A stretch of DNA of 23,998 bases. Origin: a virus. The position numbers and the translations under genes were made by a program. The stretch spans positions 1-23,998 of the IMG/VR virus record IMGVR_UViG_3300011116_000185. The stretch is one strand, 5' to 3'. The notes under the pieces were generated by a model, which worked only from the letters and a program-made list of their open reading frames with translations, made no database searches and had not been told where the DNA came from. Positions 10,434-22,435 of the stretch are shown piece after piece; position 1 is the stretch's first letter; every line of letters begins with the position of its first letter.

Positions 10434-12323
10434 TCAGATCTCGCAGTGACCGGCAACGCAGGCCAATGTTTGTGCGCCTTCGACATTGTCATCTACCTCG
10501 ACTAAGTCGTCCCATTTGATCTCTTTAGGCATCTTAGAGAGCATTTCTTCATACTGCTCTTTAGTGCATTCCTCATAAGGAGCCTGTCGGTATGTGCCAC
10601 CAGCCCAAGGCAGGAAAGACACACCAGAGATTTCATCGAAGTTCCTAAACACCCAAGCCCCGACATCCATCCATTCATCTTCTTTGACTGAGATGGTCAC
10701 AGACGGTTTATGCTCACACCAGTGACGCTGATACATCATCCAGACATCGAGGTGCTCAATTGCTGTTAGATCATCACGCAGTCTTGCTCCTTCAGGGGCC
10801 TTCATCGGAAATGAGAAGACTACTGTGCTGTCTGGTCGCATTACACAGTCTTCGGCAGGCACACCAGCAGTGCTCAAAAACGCCGAGAGAGGGTCTTTCT
10901 TGTCTCCACGAACACGGCGAATATAATACTGACTATGTCGAGCATGAATACCAGAGGCAGAATCAACAAGTTGAGAGACAGTGCCAGAAGGTTTGACACA
11001 AGTAATCGCAGCAGACTGAGGGATTCCCAACCGTGCTGCAAGGTCAGCGTTGGTATCAACGGCGACTTGCCGTAGTTGTTCAAGAGCCTTCGCAGTGCTG
11101 TCACTTACCTCTCCCATCCATTTGTTGTCTAAGATGCCAGTCAACGATACACCTAAGAGGCGCTCCTCTTCTGTGTTCTTCTGCCATACCTTACGCAGGT
11201 AAGGGAAGTTAGTCATCGTAGACTGGAACGTGCCCATAATCGTTGCTATTCGTATCTTTTTAGATAGTGATTCAACGGTGTCCTCGGCCCGTACAACGAC
11301 TTCTGTGAGGTTACAGAACTGGTATGGTCTGAGGATGATTTCTGAGCAGGGGTTTGTTCCGAAGTCAAAACTAGAATCACGTCTGCCGTTCTTTGCAGCT
11401 TGGCTTTTACTTGCTTCTCTTGAGAAGATTCCCCGTTCTCCAGAGTGACTGTTGTATAGACTTGTCCATTCTTGGAGAAACTGTCCAATCTCTGGTTTAG
11501 AGTTATAAGTTGCTGTGTTGTTAGCGAGTGCCCTATGACCATTTTGTTCCCACCAGTTTCCAGATTTACAAGACCGCATACGGTCATCCTCAAGGTCCGA
11601 CAAAGAAATCATTGCAGATCTTCGTACTCCACCGACAACAACAACTTCCCCGATTTTACAGAGAATATCGTGACATTCGATTGATGTAAGTTTTCTACCC
11701 ACTGCTCCTCTGAACTTGGCGATAGTGAACTTAAAAAGCTCATCCAAAGGTCCGGGACCAGAGGCACGTCCTCCAAAAGTTTTGAGTCTGGCTCCTGCAG
11801 GTCGAATTCTATTAAGGTCGTATTTTGCAATTTCCCCAGAGTATAATAGAGCCACGAGTTGGCGTAGTGCTTTGGCCCATCCTTCTTTTGAATCCGCAAC
11901 CGAAATAGTAGTCTGAGAATCAAACAACTGATCCGGGACTTCAGGCAATTGATCGACATATTTATGCTCCACAGAAAAGCCTACACCTGTGCCACAGAGT
12001 AGGATATACATAGCCTCATCAAAGGCTTTGGGGTCATCGATAGGCAAGTAGCTGCAATTGTAGCCAGCGGTGTTGTCCCGATCAAGGGCCTTGCCTGCGG
12101 TCATTATAGCCCTCATAGAAGGCATTACTTCCAGGTTAGTGATAGCAGACTTGATTTCTTCTGCTAACTTGTCATCGATGGTGTAGTTGTGCTTGTCTTT
12201 TAGGTGTTCCCACATAAAAGTACAGTATCGAGACACAGTTTCATTCCAGTGCTCACGCCGATTCTTGTCATTCAAGTAACGGCTGTACCGGCTCTTGGCA
12301 ATAAAGGTGCTATAGGGTGTCAT
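10434..12323 (-). CDS. nrdJ: Adenosylcobalamin-dependent (class II) ribonucleoside-triphosphate reductase
   Basis: A 629-residue monomeric class II reductase (RTPR type), which makes dNTPs from NTPs with coenzyme B12 as radical source. Residues equivalent to those of the Lactobacillus leichmannii enzyme are present: C90 in NCSYLP (C119), N324-C326-E328 in NPCSEI (N406, C408, E410) and C337 in FCNLT (C419), with matching spacing. The C-terminal pair C622/C627 in ACVAGHCE is the swivel-arm dithiol that is re-reduced by thioredoxin or glutaredoxin. It is shorter than the Lactobacillus enzyme. It works without oxygen or a second subunit but needs cobalamin from the host. Its start overlaps the preceding 54-residue gene by 14 bases. 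Confidence 0.95.
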   Translation of the reverse strand: MTPYSTFIAKSRYSRYLNDKNRREHWNETVSRYCTFMWEHLKDKHNYTIDDKLAEEIKSAITNLEVMPSMRAIMTAGKALDRDNTAGYNCSYLPIDDPKAFDEAMYILLCGTGVGFSVEHKYVDQLPEVPDQLFDSQTTISVADSKEGWAKALRQLVALLYSGEIAKYDLNRIRPAGARLKTFGGRASGPGPLDELFKFTIAKFRGAVGRKLTSIECHDILCKIGEVVVVGGVRRSAMISLSDLEDDRMRSCKSGNWWEQNGHRALANNTATYNSKPEIGQFLQEWTSLYNSHSGERGIFSREASKSQAAKNGRRDSSFDFGTNPCSEIILRPYQFCNLTEVVVRAEDTVESLSKKIRIATIMGTFQSTMTNFPYLRKVWQKNTEEERLLGVSLTGILDNKWMGEVSDSTAKALEQLRQVAVDTNADLAARLGIPQSAAITCVKPSGTVSQLVDSASGIHARHSQYYIRRVRGDKKDPLSAFLSTAGVPAEDCVMRPDSTVVFSFPMKAPEGARLRDDLTAIEHLDVWMMYQRHWCEHKPSVTISVKEDEWMDVGAWVFRNFDEISGVSFLPWAGGTYRQAPYEECTKEQYEEMLSKMPKEIKWDDLVEVDDNVEGAQTLACVAGHCEI

Positions 12324-12474
12324 CTAAGTCTATCTCCAATTCATCAAATTTATCTTCTATCTTATCAGCAAACTTCTCTATCAATTCTTCTGAAGAAATA
12401 TCTAGCACTTCCAAGATTGTAATTTCGTCTAACTTCTTCATTCGCTCCATTATATCTCTAATCGTCAACGACAT
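12310..12474 (-). CDS. Small acidic helical protein
   Basis: A 54-residue protein, MSLTIRDIMERMKKLDEITI, then LEVLDISSEELIEKFADKIE and a terminal acidic helix ending LDDTL. It has no cysteines or membrane segment. The ATG lies inside the end of the glycosyltransferase-like gene (10-base overlap) and its stop lies inside the reductase gene (14-base overlap), so it is embedded in one coupled unit. Similar short helical proteins sit near replication genes in other phages; the function is unknown. The tight packing on both sides supports a real gene. Confidence 0.68.
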   Translation of the reverse strand: MSLTIRDIMERMKKLDEITILEVLDISSEELIEKFADKIEDKFDELEIDLDDTL

Positions 12475-13373
12475 AATCTTTTCAGTGCTTCATCAAGCCC
12501 TGCCTCCCAGTTAGTATAAGGTTCATAACGTATAAGTTCCATTGAGTCGTACCAGTTAGTGCTGTCTGTATCAGCAGGGAGATAAAACCACCCCGTTTTT
12601 GATGTAGACCCAACTAAGTTCAATGTCCTTACCCCAAGTGCTCCTGCTAAGTGCGCTACACCAGTGTCAACAGTAACGACTGCCTTCAATGACTGTATCT
12701 TCTTAGCCGTTTCAAGCCAACTTCTACCATCCAAGTTCTCTGGCATAAAATCAGGCTGAATCTGTAATGATACCACTTTATGCTTCTTTGTCAACTGATT
12801 ATAGAACTTTTCTGCTAGGTTTCTAGGAATAACCTTAGCACTAGCATTCCATGAATCATTGTCACTGTACCAGCAAAACCCTATCTGGCTAGTCTTTTTA
12901 ACGCCTTTAAACTTGAAGTAGCCAGCACTGCTATGCACAGGGCCGCCGTCAACCATAGGGAACTTGTTATACTGCATCAGCAGTGCCGGTATAGACATCA
13001 CCTTGACACGCATTGCAGGCACAGCACAGTTCTCATCAGTCAGGACACCATCCACGCCCTCTAGAGAGGCTATCAGGTTCATCAGTGGCTTTTGCATATA
13101 GACACTCACGGACTTGACTGGTAACTCTTTGAGCAACGGTATGAATCGAGAGAACATGATTGTGTCGCCAACGCCTTGCTCGTTAGTTACTATCAAGTGT
13201 CGGTCTCGGACATCGTATCCAGGTTCCCAGATGATGGACCTAGACAGCGGTGTCTTCATACCCAAAGCAAACTTAACTTTACGGATTTCACGGCACTCAT
13301 ATAGATTGAAGCCTTTACTCCACTGACCCTCTTTCAGCAGTGCATAAGCCCTATCAAGATCACGCTGACTCAT
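12465..13373 (-). CDS. Glycosyltransferase-like protein (GT9/OGT-like, TPR-associated type)
   Basis: A 302-residue protein. The N-terminus (LLKEGQWSKGFNLYECR) resembles the last TPR-like helix of bacterial TPR-glycosyltransferase proteins. NEQGVGDTIMFSRFIPLL (64-81) and TVDTGVAHLAGALGVRTLNL (234-253) are hallmark segments of the heptosyltransferase (GT9) and OGT-like GT-B group, and bind the nucleotide-sugar in relatives. The donor and acceptor are unknown; host surface glycan, a virion protein or a modified nucleobase are all possible. It lies between a DUF3310 gene and ribonucleotide reductase. It overlaps the upstream gene by ATGA (13370-13373) and the next by 10 bases. Confidence 0.78.
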   Translation of the reverse strand: MSQRDLDRAYALLKEGQWSKGFNLYECREIRKVKFALGMKTPLSRSIIWEPGYDVRDRHLIVTNEQGVGDTIMFSRFIPLLKELPVKSVSVYMQKPLMNLIASLEGVDGVLTDENCAVPAMRVKVMSIPALLMQYNKFPMVDGGPVHSSAGYFKFKGVKKTSQIGFCWYSDNDSWNASAKVIPRNLAEKFYNQLTKKHKVVSLQIQPDFMPENLDGRSWLETAKKIQSLKAVVTVDTGVAHLAGALGVRTLNLVGSTSKTGWFYLPADTDSTNWYDSMELIRYEPYTNWEAGLDEALKRLCR

Positions 13374-14981: not shown

Positions 14982-15252
14982 AGCTGATTTCCTTTCTGTT
15001 TTTAACCCAAGCCTTTGGTATGTGCATCCTCGCATTACTGCTTTCCATGCTGACTGTGCAGGCAATACAGATGGCTTCTTCTGTTTCGCCAACAAGCCAA
15101 CCGATGCTTTTACACGCATGGATTTCTGGTTTGACATTCTCTTGCCATTCGACATCAGCTACGGCATCCACCCACTCGATATAGATTATCGGGGCTTTCT
15201 CCAAAGTTGATTTGGCTTTCTTCGTATCCATAGTAACTGCGCCTGTTCGCAT
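14890..15252 (-). CDS. Hypothetical phage protein with a C-terminal extension overlapping the nuclease
   Basis: A 120-residue frame. The core IIYIEWVDAVADVEWQ, IHACKSIGWLVGETEEAICI and MHIPKAWVKNRKEI is a recognisable small phage protein (IEWVDA...GWLV...IP pattern), function unknown. Homologs as I recall end near the IPK...RKEI segment. Here the frame continues 31 residues (rich in Ser, Lys, Pro and Arg) across the beginning of the nuclease gene. The ATG at 15252 has GAGGA six bases upstream but overlaps the exonuclease by 67 bases; an ATG at 15231 is an alternative. Real coding is supported by the core pattern. Confidence 0.72.
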   Translation of the reverse strand: MRTGAVTMDTKKAKSTLEKAPIIYIEWVDAVADVEWQENVKPEIHACKSIGWLVGETEEAICIACTVSMESSNARMHIPKAWVKNRKEISFEAIVSESKRASPAASRKGSNPSKVQPRAR

Positions 15253-15863
15253 AAGTATTCCTCATTGTTGTCATAAGCCTTCAGTACAGCCTCATAGAGT
15301 TGGTCTTCGGTCTTGCAACCCTTCAGTATCTTCTCAGCCTTCTTAGGACCTATTCCATGCAATCCTGGTATGTTATCGACACGGTCCCCAGTGAGAACTT
15401 GTGTGTAGAAATTGTACAGGGTATCGTCTTCATCAACCCAAAACTTCTCATTCTTACGCATATTGTAATGCCAGCCACGAATCATGTTCAGATCCTTGTC
15501 TGTCGTGCAAATGATATAGTCTTCAGGTTCCATAGAATAGGCAGCAATACCAAGGGCATCATCTGCTTCTTGATATTGCTCCACAGAGAACTTCCAAGCC
15601 GTAGTCAGATAATCCCTCAGTAGGTTTAAATGCTTTGGCTTGTCCTGTGTCCTAGTACCTTTGTAGGGCTTGGTCTTAGCAATGCTGACACGAAAGTTCT
15701 CATAGCCGGTAAGAAAGCCTTCGGCATCAGAACAGTCAGCGTGTACAAAGACCAAGTCTTCCAAATACTCTGAACACTTTGATAGTGCGGTTTTCTCATC
15801 ATAGTCTTCACAGCCAGCAGCTACTGTGTAGGCTATGATGTCTCCGTCTATCAGAGCGATCAT
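15186..15863 (-). CDS. 5'-3' exonuclease / FEN-type nuclease
   Basis: A 225-residue structure-specific nuclease that would remove RNA primers and 5' flaps. The metal-binding residues appear in order: LIDGDIIAY (D6, D8), EADDALG, CTTDKDLNMI, and the helix-hairpin-helix region GDRVDNIPGLHGIGPKKAEK. It is close in build to T7 gp6 and to the 5' nuclease domain of Pol I, which the phage polymerase here lacks. It follows the SSB gene with a TAATG overlap at 15861-15865, and its end overlaps the next gene. Confidence 0.9.
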   Translation of the reverse strand: MIALIDGDIIAYTVAAGCEDYDEKTALSKCSEYLEDLVFVHADCSDAEGFLTGYENFRVSIAKTKPYKGTRTQDKPKHLNLLRDYLTTAWKFSVEQYQEADDALGIAAYSMEPEDYIICTTDKDLNMIRGWHYNMRKNEKFWVDEDDTLYNFYTQVLTGDRVDNIPGLHGIGPKKAEKILKGCKTEDQLYEAVLKAYDNNEEYLCEQAQLLWIRRKPNQLWRKPR

Positions 15864-16293: not shown

Positions 16294-16494
16294 TTAGTGA
16301 GTAATTTTGTTAGACTTCGGTTCTGCTGCTTCAGAAATCATTATACAGGCAGTTTCTAGTATGTCAAGCATTTCTTCATATTTATTTGTTAAATTTTTGC
16401 TATAGGCCACATGGATAGCCCCATCGATGACCGCTATCATCAAGGCAGACTCTGGCTCTCCCATGTCCTTAAAATCGTCTAGTGCGTTTGACAC
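16294..16494 (-). CDS. Small hypothetical protein after DNA polymerase
   Basis: A 66-residue protein, SNALDDFKDMGEPESALMIA, then VIDGAIHVAYSKNLTNKYEE and a helix rich in Ile, Glu and Ala. No family is recognised. GTG at 16494 is chosen because GGAG lies about seven bases upstream; TTG at 16497 and ATG at 16464 are alternatives. The start lies within the last codons of the polymerase (16-base overlap), so coupling is likely. Confidence 0.65.
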   Translation of the reverse strand: MSNALDDFKDMGEPESALMIAVIDGAIHVAYSKNLTNKYEEMLDILETACIMISEAAEPKSNKITH

Positions 16495-18215
16495 CAATTA
16501 TCTCCAATCTTGTATTCGCCGTCTAGGGGACAGCGTAGGTTAAGGGTTCTACCCGCTTTCCTGATGCTCTCTACTGCTAAAAACCCTACTCTTTGTGCGT
16601 GTTCTTCCTTGACCTCTAACTGGAACTCGTCATGCACATTGACCACAAACTTTGCATCTAGTTTGTTCCTGCGGATGCTCTCATCTAAGAACACCAAAGC
16701 CTGCTTCATCACTATCGCACCAGCACCTTGTAAAAGGGTGTTGAGGGCTGCGTGTTCGGAGCGAACGAATAGCCTGCGTCCATCAAGACCTGGAAGGTGC
16801 CCTTTAACGGCGAGTTCGTTAACCGTGCTGCGAAGAGTCTGCAAAGCTGGCGTGTTCCTAAGAAAAGAATCGATGAGCCTTTGCCCTTCCTTCGCTGAAC
16901 CACCAACAATCGACCCGATTTTGGCAGCCCCTGCGCCATAGAGGAATGCATAGATAAACGTTTTGGCTTGCGCCCTTGTAGATAACCCCGCAGCTTGCTG
17001 GTTCTTGGTATGTACATCAGTTCCCAAATCCTGCGTGCCTTCTGTGACCGTCTTAACATAATCCTGATCCTTCATATAGTGAGCCAACATACGCAACTCT
17101 AAGCCACTGGCATCAGCACCAACGAGTTTATAGCCCTTTGGCACGGTAAAGAGACTGCGACACTCTACACCATACGGAGAGCCAACGGAGGGCACCTGGG
17201 CCATGTTAGGGCTTTGGTGCGTCATTCTTCCCGTGACTGCTCCGTTGGTGATGACCTTACCGTGAATCCGTTGCTGGTCTGTCGTATTCTCAATCCACGA
17301 CTCAACCATAGCCACCCGTTTCTGAAGCAATAGATATTCGGCAATAGCCTGCGCTTCTGGAATATTAACTCCTGCAAGAACGGTCTCATCTACTTTGGCT
17401 TGACCGTTGTCCGTGAAGTGCTGCGGCTTCCAACCTTTTTCTTGGAGGCGCTTGGCGATTTGCTGCCTCGAGCCGGGGTTAAAGACTTCGATATCGTCCT
17501 TGAGCCTTTTTCCAGTTTTCTCTGAATAACGCTCGGTTGTGATTGGAGGAAAGATGAACTGTAGGGATGCCTCAATTGCGCCCATTTTATCTTTAAGTCC
17601 TGCCAGAAGTACCATAGCCGCTGGCAAATCGAATTTAAAACCGTTTCGCTCCTGCTTACAGATAATGGCTGCGACTTTGTGTTCGAGTTCGATACTCTTT
17701 TCCGAGAAACCATAATGTTGTTGCTCCTTTAAAAGTTCAAAGTAAGTTAACTCCAATACTTCTACATCACGCCTGCAATAACGCTCTAACAGTTTGGGGT
17801 GCGGCTGGTCAAACGGTAGAGTGCTCTTCTTGTCATAAGAGAGTTTGTTGATCCTGTGCCAGACTCTCTTGTAGTCTATCTTCTTCCTGCCTAGCCTGTT
17901 TCCCCAGCTTTCTAGGCTGTGTCCGTTTTCTCGGTTTGGACTCATCAGCCTTGACATGACTAGGGTGTCTATGCACATCGACGGAGTTATCTTCGTATTC
18001 CACAGCTTGTTCAAGATTGGGAAGTCGAAGCTGATTCCGTTGTGCGCTACTACTTGTGGTTGTTCCTCTAACATTTTTAATAAAGTGTCGGCCTTGTGAT
18101 GACATCTAACCTCTCCGCTTCTTAGTTCCTTTGTTACGCACAGGTGGATCTGGCTCAACTGGGAGTTGGTCTCTATGTCCAGAAAAACTATCGATTTGTT
18201 GCCAATCTCGGTCAT
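16479..18215 (-). CDS. Family A DNA polymerase with 3'-5' exonuclease (T7-like)
   Basis: A 578-residue replicative polymerase. The proofreading domain shows FLDIET (D13, E15), HNGISFDFP (D64) and YCRRD (Y146, D150). Polymerase motif A is GADASGLELRML (D368), motif B is RAQAKTFIYAFLYGAG with K418 and Y422, and motif C is NVHDEF (D529). Y422 is equivalent to E. coli Pol I position 762, as in T7 (Y526). It lacks a 5' nuclease domain, supplied by the gene at 15186, and is shorter than T7 gp5. The only reasonable ATG lies inside the upstream 68-residue gene, overlapping it by 110 bases. Confidence 0.96.
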   Translation of the reverse strand: MTEIGNKSIVFLDIETNSQLSQIHLCVTKELRSGEVRCHHKADTLLKMLEEQPQVVAHNGISFDFPILNKLWNTKITPSMCIDTLVMSRLMSPNRENGHSLESWGNRLGRKKIDYKRVWHRINKLSYDKKSTLPFDQPHPKLLERYCRRDVEVLELTYFELLKEQQHYGFSEKSIELEHKVAAIICKQERNGFKFDLPAAMVLLAGLKDKMGAIEASLQFIFPPITTERYSEKTGKRLKDDIEVFNPGSRQQIAKRLQEKGWKPQHFTDNGQAKVDETVLAGVNIPEAQAIAEYLLLQKRVAMVESWIENTTDQQRIHGKVITNGAVTGRMTHQSPNMAQVPSVGSPYGVECRSLFTVPKGYKLVGADASGLELRMLAHYMKDQDYVKTVTEGTQDLGTDVHTKNQQAAGLSTRAQAKTFIYAFLYGAGAAKIGSIVGGSAKEGQRLIDSFLRNTPALQTLRSTVNELAVKGHLPGLDGRRLFVRSEHAALNTLLQGAGAIVMKQALVFLDESIRRNKLDAKFVVNVHDEFQLEVKEEHAQRVGFLAVESIRKAGRTLNLRCPLDGEYKIGDNWCQTH

Positions 18216-20085: not shown

Positions 20086-21699
20086 TTATAATGCTTCTTC
20101 GTTAATTTCGTTCATACGACCTGAGTGCTTGTCATACAGGACTGCACAGGCTTTGCCGGTCTCTCCGCTGTATCGGTTCTTGATAACCCTGACCCTTGTG
20201 GTATTGCGCTCGATAGGGTCTTCATGCTGTGCTGACCTTTCCAATCCTAGCACCATATCAGCCAATTGTCCAATACTTGCTGAACCCCTTAATTGGGACA
20301 GGCTAGTTGCTGCGCCCTCTTCGTGACCTTTACCGTCTGGCCTGCGTAGGTGGGACACCACAAACAAGGCTACCCCTGTCTCCTGCACTATCATCCGCAG
20401 CTTGGTCATAATCTCATCAATGGCTTTACGCTCATCTCCATGATCCTGTGCTGACACCACGATAGAGACATGGTCTAGCAGGATGTACTTGCAGTCTAGC
20501 CCTTTGGCAAAGTATCTCACCCGATTGATAATGTTATCGATTGCTGTGGAGCCAAAGCAGTCATAAAAGAACAGCCGGTTAGAACCTAGGGTCTTATCAA
20601 AGGCTTCCTTCTTTGATGCCTCGGTTACCTCAGTCTCTGCCAAGTGCAATGGCTTATTGATCGCCAATGACATCAGAGACAAGGCAGTCCGCTTGACCGA
20701 CTCTTCCAAGAACATAATCCCGATGTTGTCCTTGGTCTCACAGAGCAATTGCCAGATGACCTCACGAATAAACTGCGACTTACCAAGACCTGAGCCAGCA
20801 GTGACCACAACCATCTCTTGTTGCCTGATGCCGCCGGTCATGTCATTCAAGCCGGCATAGGGATAGTGCGCCTGAGCCTTTGGAAGTGGCTGCATCACTA
20901 ACTCAAACAGCTCTGAGCCAGCAACGATGCCATCAGGCACATAGGTCTCTGCTGCCCACCATGCTTTCACAAAGTCCGCAGATTTGTTGTCCTTGAGATA
21001 GTCGCAGGCATCTTTGTGGGGCTTAGTCATCTTCATAATCTTGACCTTGGAGCCAAACAGATCAGCAACGGCTAGGGCTGCTTCCTGCCCAGGTTCATCA
21101 GCATCAAATGCGAGCACAATAGTCTCAAAGCTGTCGATGTACTCAAATTGTGCTTGGCAGTCCTTCACAGCCGATTGTGCCCCGTTCTTGATGGACACCA
21201 CAGGGTAGAGCGACCCCGTCATCTGAAAAGCAGCCAAGGCATCTAACTCGCCCTCACAGATAGTCAGGTACTTGCCACCGGCAGGGTATCGATTCTGACC
21301 GAAGAGCAGAGCTTCTTTAATGTTGCCCTGAGACCTGAACTGCTTGTCTGCCACTGTCCTAATCTTAAAGGCTACCTCAGTGCCCCTATCGTCAGTGTAA
21401 GGATAATAATGTTCTGTCCCTGATTGTCTGACACCGTAGGCCTCGCAGGTGGCTTTAGTGATTCCCCTTTCGGGTATGCTTAGGAATTGACCGCTAAGGC
21501 CTCTAAAAGGCTCTACAACGGGTTTCTGAGTCATAGTTAGTACCTTACCCCTTCCTTGGTCAACAAAGCCGTCTGAGGGCCTGCTATGGGTTTTACAATT
21601 AAAACAGTATTCTGAGCCGTCAGAATAGACTGCTCTGGCATCAGAGGAACCACAGCCCTCACAGGCTATGTGCTTGATAAATTTAGATTGAGTTTGCAT
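20086..21699 (-). CDS. Primase-helicase (T7 gp4-like)
   Basis: A 537-residue bifunctional replication enzyme. A zinc-binding domain carries C13, C16, C32 and C35 (ACEGCG, CFNCKTH). The TOPRIM primase core shows CEGELDALAA (E149, D153) and LAFDADEPGQ (D199, D201). The DnaB-type helicase has Walker A AGSGLGKS (K307), FLEES, ILLDHVS (D409) and SHLRRPDGKGHEEG, then QLRGSASIGQLAD. It makes primers and unwinds the fork for the polymerase at 16479. ATG at 21699 is chosen; a TTG at 21723 would add eight residues. It is the second gene after the promoter region. Confidence 0.95.
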   Translation of the reverse strand: MQTQSKFIKHIACEGCGSSDARAVYSDGSEYCFNCKTHSRPSDGFVDQGRGKVLTMTQKPVVEPFRGLSGQFLSIPERGITKATCEAYGVRQSGTEHYYPYTDDRGTEVAFKIRTVADKQFRSQGNIKEALLFGQNRYPAGGKYLTICEGELDALAAFQMTGSLYPVVSIKNGAQSAVKDCQAQFEYIDSFETIVLAFDADEPGQEAALAVADLFGSKVKIMKMTKPHKDACDYLKDNKSADFVKAWWAAETYVPDGIVAGSELFELVMQPLPKAQAHYPYAGLNDMTGGIRQQEMVVVTAGSGLGKSQFIREVIWQLLCETKDNIGIMFLEESVKRTALSLMSLAINKPLHLAETEVTEASKKEAFDKTLGSNRLFFYDCFGSTAIDNIINRVRYFAKGLDCKYILLDHVSIVVSAQDHGDERKAIDEIMTKLRMIVQETGVALFVVSHLRRPDGKGHEEGAATSLSQLRGSASIGQLADMVLGLERSAQHEDPIERNTTRVRVIKNRYSGETGKACAVLYDKHSGRMNEINEEAL

Positions 21700-21898
21700 T
21701 AATCCTAACCCTTTCCTCAGCAAGCTGATCCAACACAGCCAGCAAAGCTACACAATTGCCCGATGTGGGCTTAGTGCGCTTCAAAGCCTCATAGACATCG
21801 TTTAAAAGGGTCTCGATGTCAGTAGAGCCATGAGCCAATAGGTCTACACAATCAGAAACACAAAACCAATAAATCCTTTCTAAGTCATCATTTTCCAT
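21683..21898 (-). CDS. Small hypothetical protein, first gene after the promoter region
   Basis: A 71-residue, mostly helical protein: MENDDLERIYWFCVSDCVDL, then STDIETLLNDVYEALKRTKP and VALLAVLDQLAEERVRI. No family is recognised. It is the first gene downstream of the sigma-54 and sigma-70 elements, with AAGGTGG about six bases upstream. It overlaps the primase-helicase start by 17 bases, so the two are likely translated together; it may act with that enzyme, by context only. Confidence 0.7.
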   Translation of the reverse strand: MENDDLERIYWFCVSDCVDLLAHGSTDIETLLNDVYEALKRTKPTSGNCVALLAVLDQLAEERVRINANSI

Positions 21899-21921
21899 TG
21901 ACTACCACCTTTCTTTATTGT

Positions 21922-21931
21922 CTCTATAGAG
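21922..21931. promoter_or_regulatory. Palindrome CTCTATAGAG at the predicted sigma-70 start site
   Basis: A perfect 10-base palindrome that lies where transcription from the sigma-70 element should begin (about 21930-21932). It could be an operator. Its core TATAGAG also resembles the T7-promoter core, but no repeat copies were found elsewhere in the window. Low certainty. Confidence 0.35.
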
Positions 21932-21937
21932 TAAAGA

Positions 21938-21966
21938 ATTAAAATCTTTATTAAAGTCTTTTTCAA
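21938..21966 (-). promoter_or_regulatory. Sigma-70 promoter driving the replication genes
   Basis: On the minus strand, TTGAAA (21966-21961) and TTTAAT (21943-21938) are separated by 17 bases, each one mismatch from the TTGACA and TATAAT consensus. The surroundings are very AT-rich. The predicted start near 21931 gives a leader of about 33 bases before the ATG at 21898. It lies in the only sizeable gap of the leftward arm. Confidence 0.68.
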
Positions 21967-21969
21967 TAT

Positions 21970-21992
21970 AGACTATTTAGTTAATATAGTCT
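21970..21992. promoter_or_regulatory. Inverted repeat, possible operator
   Basis: AGACTAT (21970-21976) and ATAGTCT (21986-21992) form a perfect 7-base inverted repeat with a 9-base AT-rich spacer. It sits just upstream of the sigma-70 -35 box and covers the expected sigma-54 start site near 21987, a position suited to a regulator that affects both. A role as an origin element is an alternative. Confidence 0.45.
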
Positions 21993-21998
21993 TTAATA

Positions 21999-22013
21999 GC
22001 AAGAATCGTGCCA
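21999..22013 (-). promoter_or_regulatory. Sigma-54 (RpoN) -24/-12 promoter element
   Basis: On the minus strand TGGCACG (22013-22007), four bases, then TTGC (22002-21999) match the sigma-54 consensus TGGCACG-N4-TTGC exactly, and the next base T also fits. It lies just after the stop of the gene at 22018 and upstream of the primase-helicase genes. The expected start is near 21987, leaving a leader of about 90 bases. An enhancer-binding activator would be needed; none is encoded in this window. Confidence 0.7.
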
Positions 22014-22017
22014 GCCT

Positions 22018-22269
22018 CTATCGTGACTGCCAAGGGTCATCAATATCGTCATCAAAGTCATGGATGCCCGCTAATGGGTCTAAATCGGCCTCAGTGCCTT
22101 CCTCGACTTCATCGGCCTCAGACATCAGGGAAACATTTCCAACGGCACAGAGGTCTGTTTTAATCGATTTTAGGCACTGTTTACACATAGAGACATATTC
22201 CATAGTGTGAAGTGACCGAATTGTGGTCTCATAATCGGTTAAAGCCTCATTACAGGATCGGCAGCGCAT
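22018..22269 (-). CDS. Small zinc-ribbon protein with acidic tail
   Basis: An 83-residue protein: MRCRSCNEALTDYETTIRSL, then VSMCKQCLKSIKTDLC and a strongly acidic C-terminus (EADEVEEGTEADLDPLAG, then DFDDDIDDPW). CRSC and CKQC form a zinc ribbon like those of many small phage proteins with the C..C...L...E pattern. ATG at 22269 is chosen because GAAAGGG precedes it; a longer frame to 22308 lies within the upstream gene. The acidic tail could mimic DNA or contact a basic partner, but this is speculation. Confidence 0.72.
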   Translation of the reverse strand: MRCRSCNEALTDYETTIRSLHTMEYVSMCKQCLKSIKTDLCAVGNVSLMSEADEVEEGTEADLDPLAGIHDFDDDIDDPWQSR

Positions 22270-22435
22270 CTTTTTCCCTTTCCTGCTGTAGCTTGAGCAT
22301 TTTCTCATTCTCAGCCTTCACAACATAGTAGGCGAATTCAATCAAGGCATCCTCGTCACCGTACCAATTGCCCCAATCGCTATAGTCTAGGCGATCATCT
22401 AGGATCTCTACCACCTCTGCATTCGTTAACAGCAT
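22250..22435 (-). CDS. Small acidic hypothetical protein
   Basis: A 61-residue protein, LLTNAEVVEILDDRLDYSDW, GNWYGDEDALIEFAYYVVKA, then a charged helix ending KDALPIL. No family is recognised. AGGAGG lies seven to eight bases before the ATG. It overlaps the upstream gene by 10 bases and the zinc-ribbon gene by 20. Confidence 0.7.
   Translation of the reverse strand: MLLTNAEVVEILDDRLDYSDWGNWYGDEDALIEFAYYVVKAENEKMLKLQQEREKDALPIL

Follow-up and report, generated by a model that had tools for sequence, protein, structure and literature searches.

We have identified a sigma-54 (RpoN)-type -24/-12 element upstream of the replication genes in a virus contig of 23,998 bases from a group of freshwater phages; the whole contig is called the window below. 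The interpretation that we favor, as the probable one and no more than that, is that the element serves both as a binding site for host E-sigma-54 and as the promoter of the replication operon. The sequence of the element, its conservation, its fixed direction and its agreement with RpoN specificity, at the free positions as well as in the mismatches that are tolerated, were observed directly; the host RpoN, its occupancy of the site, transcription and the identity of the activator are inferred from these sequence data.

Lytic phages are thought to rely on the housekeeping sigma factor, on phage sigma factors or on phage RNA polymerases. Our results suggest that phages tap a regulatory system of the host that was not known before to drive phage genes. 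The element represents an ordinary promoter type, that of RpoN. In the open-access literature we found no paper describing its invariant use ahead of a lytic phage's replication genes or the clusters of similar sites described below, and none on sigma-54-driven phages (subscription papers were not covered). If the interpretation is true, a clade-wide invariant RpoN site before replication genes, together with clusters across unrelated phages, would constitute a new route of host takeover.

The Element and its Surroundings in the Window

The plus strand of the left 10 kb of the window encodes structural and lysis functions. The remainder runs leftward, with small ORFs, a T7-like primase-helicase (20086–21687, minus strand; phrog_239, E 3.7e-182; DnaB_C and Toprim), a family A DNA polymerase downstream and co-directional (16479–18215, minus; E 1.1e-52), a 5'-3' exonuclease, likewise co-directional (15186–15863, minus), and, as the last gene of the arm, a B12-dependent (class II) ribonucleotide reductase (10434–12323, minus). 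A protein at 12465–13373 (minus), within the replication arm, matches glycosyltransferase family 9 (heptosyltransferase-like). The replication half of the window gave no megablast match among 50,697 phage records, a search of bacterial genomes by primase found no prophage, and no close cultured relative of this phage was found; the nearest cultured primases, from the Pelagibacter phages HTVC115P, HTVC103P and HTVC104P, are 49–51% identical.

The element, TGGCACG-ATTC-TTGCT, occupies positions 21998–22013 of the minus strand. Positions 21999–22013 read TGGCACGATTCTTGC on that strand, and the T at 21998 extends this to TGGCACGATTCTTGCT; the -24 GG lies at 22012–22011 and the -12 GC at 22000–21999. 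The exact minus-strand match to TGGCACG-N4-TTGC claimed by the sequence-only reading was confirmed, and a search with TGGCRNGNNNNTTGCW allowing zero or one mismatch returned this site (22013–21998) as the single match in the whole window. The sequence YTGGCACG-N4-TTGCW, with its exact spacing, satisfies the criterion of a sigma-54-dependent promoter. Scored with a matrix derived from 29 intergenic sigma-54 sites of Salmonella that have ChIP support (PMC3844500, table 3), the site reaches 22.6 bits, compared with 16.2–23.6 for the known Salmonella sites.

Immediately upstream is an ORF with CxxC pairs (22018–22308, minus), the stop codon of which lies 4 bp before the element and the place of which is taken by other genes in some relatives. 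The element stands 100 bp upstream of a 71-aa ORF (21683–21898, minus) that has no Pfam or PHROG match and is presumed to be the first gene of the operon; the primase-helicase follows directly. From the standard spacing of sigma-54 promoters, transcription is predicted to start at about 21987 (minus), 12 bases past the -12 C. The AT content and an alignment of intergenic regions delineate a presumed melting region and leader at 21899–21997 (minus), which diverges among relatives save for its AT-rich start and a Shine-Dalgarno sequence, GAAAGGTRG, near its end. Averaged over 77 loci, the AT content is 85% in the 24 bases downstream of the primase site vs. 50% in the 24 bases upstream. An RNA element at the site was considered and rejected: Rfam gave no match, and the folded leader had a z of -2.9, but the stem sequences are not kept in relatives.

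How much can be drawn from a single match is limited. First-order Markov copies of the window yielded 0.010 matches to TGGCACG-N4-TTGC per window over both strands, in agreement with the figure of about 0.01 in the sequence-only reading, and 0.028 to TGGCAYG-N4-TTGCW. A chance match without function has this in its favor, that with 0.01–0.03 matches expected per window many windows will hold one. Because scanning many windows yields single matches of this sort by chance, we place the weight on conservation and on the clusters rather than on the lone match.

Conservation Upstream of the Primase

A total of 80 relatives were retrieved from IMG/VR on the primase alone. The element was present in all those with enough upstream sequence, about -300 to -370 from the primase start, and at -169 in one relative with a shortened spacer. 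When all loci were pooled, every one of the 75 distinct relatives with at least 70% primase identity possessed it (51/51 distinct loci in the 90% identity bin, 17/17 in the 80% bin and 7/7 in the 70% bin), facing the operon in each case and away from it in none. This bears out the earlier claim that the site is aimed at the primase-helicase, and the comparison with related phages that the same reading proposed thus came out in its favor. Below 60% primase identity, none of 39 loci carried the element near the primase.

The spacer N4 varies among the relatives (ATTC, GAAC, AAAC or ATCC) and position 6 is either C or T, while the base preceding TGGC is a pyrimidine in 61/66, matching the published extended consensus. 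Information is near 2 bits per column in the element and mostly below 0.6 bit over the 60 bases upstream, and the element sits close behind a stop codon even in relatives with a different upstream gene. When 12 divergent intergenic regions were aligned, the only invariant blocks were the element and the Shine-Dalgarno/ATG. A promoter element on which selection acts shows just this pattern. A chance match cannot account for invariance in 75/75 close relatives whose flanking DNA diverges on either side; this conservation excludes it, and we leave it only a vanishing share of probability.

Two further observations concern the same region. In seven relatives (L024, L027, L030, L032, L044, L047 and L052) a second TGGCACG half-element (TTGGCACGCCCTGYTTTGTATGCCAAAAAGCAAGC) lies about 35 bp upstream of the site; it is tied to the GAAC spacer variant and has the look of a small cassette that is mobile or has recombined. 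In L294, L306 and others, the string TGGCATAAYCCTTTTA gave an appearance of homology that was rejected, the string being coding (CWHNPFN).

The AT-rich DNA downstream could also be taken as the sign of an ordinary sigma-70 promoter, in which TTGCTA would be the -35 box, followed by an AT-rich -10, and TGGCA would be incidental. Two relatives, L193 and L251, do have TTAACA-N17-TATAAT or TATTAT just past the site. However, there is no sigma-70 match at the site position in the window, no -10 occurs at a constant distance among the relatives, and the supposedly incidental TGGCA is among the most invariant parts; we regard this reading as very improbable. A clean replacement of a sigma-70 by a sigma-54 promoter at the primase junction was only partly supported: of 19 relatives that lack the element, HTVC103P and L289 gave a convincing sigma-70 match (p ≤ 0.02) and L272 gave a weaker one (p = 0.05).

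Clusters of Sites in Relatives and Other Phages

Past the right end of the window, where a noncoding region separates the terminase from the early genes, relatives carry at least one further site; in one of them, L099, seven sites fall within about 200 bp. Scans of IMG/VR returned at least 120 matches for two sites 3–32 bp apart and at least 120 for convergent pairs, against one match for a scrambled control of the tandem pattern, and the pattern read backwards gave zero matches in 27 whole records. About half of the loci listed belong to the terminase family of the window's relatives and the others to unrelated phages of up to 354 kb; no close cultured relatives of the other cluster-bearing phages were found. 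In bacterial and archaeal genomes, convergent pairs occurred in only 20 stretches in 257 Gb, and the dense clusters are therefore a viral feature.

Dense clusters of four to nine RpoN-type sites are located upstream of the terminase operon in related podophages (L099:2911–3106, L273:1923–2024, L121:2042–2223, L339:8236–8446, L318:18–256, L353 and L368). The sites are packed 25–29 bp apart or face to face, with preferred gaps of 9–13 bp for tandem, 1–5 bp for convergent and 10 or 20 bp for divergent pairs (these counts include loci fetched by the paired patterns), which implies an ordered packing too tight for independent promoters. In the terminase family the clustered sites point away from the terminase, toward the early arm, in 235 cases vs. 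83. DnaA boxes are enriched 27-fold and G-tracts 10-fold near the clusters, and the AT content directly downstream is 53% for clustered sites vs. 85% for the primase site. In the unrelated phages L372 and L333, in which spacing to sigma-70-like boxes was measured, the site is fixed 32–33 bp upstream of such (TTGACA-type) boxes and aimed away from small genes; this is not promoter geometry.

These features speak for the view that RpoN or E-sigma-54 binds the sites chiefly for purposes other than transcription, such as titration of host sigma-54, a roadblock or operator beside sigma-70 promoters, or origin activation, with the primase copy as a regulatory or origin site. Clusters of up to nine sites in tandem or face to face (gaps of 1–5 and 9–13 bp), without AT-rich DNA downstream, close to DnaA boxes and G-tracts, and the constant spacing to sigma-70 boxes in L372 and L333 would all be accommodated. 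The primase site does not conform to it: unlike the clustered sites it is single, faces the operon in 75/75 and is followed by AT-rich DNA, as a promoter would be. We consider non-promoter binding a possibility of limited likelihood as an account of the element, while the clusters themselves may exploit RpoN in the role of decoys, origin elements or operators.

Several other features of these regions were recorded. The terminase/early noncoding regions at L197:8900–9450, L043:1100–1700 and L012:250–800 contain many inverted repeats of the TATGTTGCAGTGCAGCA type, DnaA boxes (TTATCCACA, seen in L197) and a GGGGGGGTGGGG tract; this noncoding region is probably the replication origin of the phage group. 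Site pairs in the unrelated phages L372 (2055–6026), L333 (8990–10032) and L397 (4706–6804) point away from small genes and lie beside CTGCCAAAATGGCAG palindromes, the distance to the sigma-70-like box being 53 bp in one instance. Repeated promoter/stem-loop cassettes similar to this arrangement are known in T4-like phages. A large phage with clustered RpoN-type sites (L541:13546–15465, record G035, 223 kb) encodes a PrkA/YeaG serine kinase (PF08298, E 2.4e-112), which is also present in Thermus phages; yeaG of Salmonella is sigma-54 dependent (PMC3844500).

Agreement with RpoN Recognition

Statistics at the free positions are biased by construction when the loci were collected with the strict pattern, and those were superseded by a core-only scan and by loci fetched through their proteins. 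The core-only scan fixed TGGCA-N6-TTGC alone, required twice at 9–14 bp apart, and produced 173 sites in 70 loci. A pyrimidine at position 6, a purine at position 7 and A or T at position 16 were found together in 84% of these sites vs. 12.5% by chance. The frequencies were 0.45/0.49 for C/T at position 6, 0.74/0.20 for G/A at position 7 and 0.53/0.36 for A/T at position 16; the corresponding values in the Salmonella set are 0.59/0.38, 0.66/0.34 and 0.48/0.45. The same rule was fulfilled by 18 of the 20 clustered sites in the protein-fetched loci.

Tolerance of the -15 position together with strict GG and GC is a hallmark of sigma-54 recognition. Among one-mismatch sites near clusters, changes were common at positions 12 (55), 16 (29), 4 (28, all C to T) and 1 (25), and rare at G2 (4), G3 (3), T13 (1) and G14 (0); the Salmonella set displays the same trend. 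A promoter criterion of invariant GG and GC, degenerate N4 and tolerant -15 is hence met, the N4 being taken from the primase site and the tolerance profile from the clustered sites. Since both the base preferences and the order of tolerated mismatches match those of sigma-54, we identify the element as a -24/-12 element of the RpoN type, and RpoN-type recognition is, in our estimate, highly likely.

The remaining possibility is that a protein other than RpoN, either a replication initiator, whose iterons would lie at the origin with a regulatory copy upstream of the primase, or a regulator of the host, recognizes TGGCAYR-N4-TTGCW by coincidence. The clusters, which resemble iterons and lie close to DnaA boxes in divergent noncoding DNA, would suit such a protein, as would the spacing to sigma-70 boxes in L372 and L333, which resembles that of a class I activator. 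Yet the bases preferred where positions were left free, and the ranking of positions by the mismatches they tolerate, are those of sigma-54, and it would be a large coincidence for another protein to share them all. Moreover, no regulator family is common to the 249 cluster-bearing loci, in which the terminase is the largest protein family (135/249). Recognition by a protein other than RpoN is thus unlikely, in our view.

Activator and Proposed Mechanism

The sigma-54 polymerase needs an ATP-driven activator to open DNA, and phage replication could therefore be gated by host state (nitrogen, envelope stress or motility). Neither Sigma54_DBD (PF04552) nor Sigma54_activat (PF00158) was present in the window; PF00158 was absent from 20 records comprising the window and relatives, and both were absent from 27 cluster-bearing records, with the proviso that the records may be incomplete. 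As no phage gene for RpoN or an activator occurs in the records searched, the activator must be that of the host. The sequence-only reading had proposed a search of the upstream DNA for an enhancer-binding site, and its outcome was negative: we found no conserved enhancer in the weakly conserved 60 bp upstream of the site, where the gene is replaced in some relatives. Such a site is not strictly required, and some activators act without one. The lack of both a phage activator and a conserved enhancer implies one of two things: an activator of the host acts remotely or while free in solution, or the event that counts is binding without transcription.

On the promoter interpretation, host E-sigma-54 would be held on the element as a closed complex until a host AAA+ enhancer-binding protein, active in infection, opens the AT-rich DNA just downstream. 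Transcription would then begin near 21987 and the replication operon would fire, the presumed operon consisting of the 71-aa ORF, the primase-helicase and, further on, the DNA polymerase, exonuclease and ribonucleotide reductase genes. The original proposal of a sigma-54 promoter for the replication operon thus stands in substance on sequence, conservation and direction, while promoter activity itself is an inference.

A broader hypothesis, which we offer only tentatively and would not ourselves expect to hold in full, is that many unrelated environmental phages use dense clusters of RpoN sites near origins and early/late divergent regions to capture or redirect host sigma-54 polymerase. Working like a sponge, the clusters would silence the sigma-54 regulon of the host; working like a switch, they would couple both the replication of the phage and its gene expression to an activator of the host. 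The primase promoter of the window would be one output of this system.

Comparison with Known Systems

The stoperators of phage L5 are a dispersed system of asymmetric operators. Like these and like origin iterons, the phage sites are repeated, asymmetric, noncoding and often in one orientation; they differ in obeying RpoN sequence rules, and the flanks examined showed no phage repressor in common. T7-like phages, with their primase-helicase, PolA and exonuclease modules, have the same replication genes in a similar order. So do the Pelagibacter phages HTVC103P and HTVC115P (primase 49–51% identical), but in these phages the primase has no such element nearby, and in HTVC103P a sigma-70-like TTGACA-N17-TATAGT is present there. 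Compared with bacterial sigma-54 promoters, the phage element is distinguished by its location in a phage, by the lack of a conserved upstream enhancer and of an activator gene nearby, and by the presence of clustered copies elsewhere in the phage group, an arrangement that is very rare in bacterial genomes. With the Salmonella sigma-54 regulon (PMC3844500) it shares the consensus, the spacing, the degenerate positions, a similar matrix score and an intergenic position about 100 bp before the first gene.
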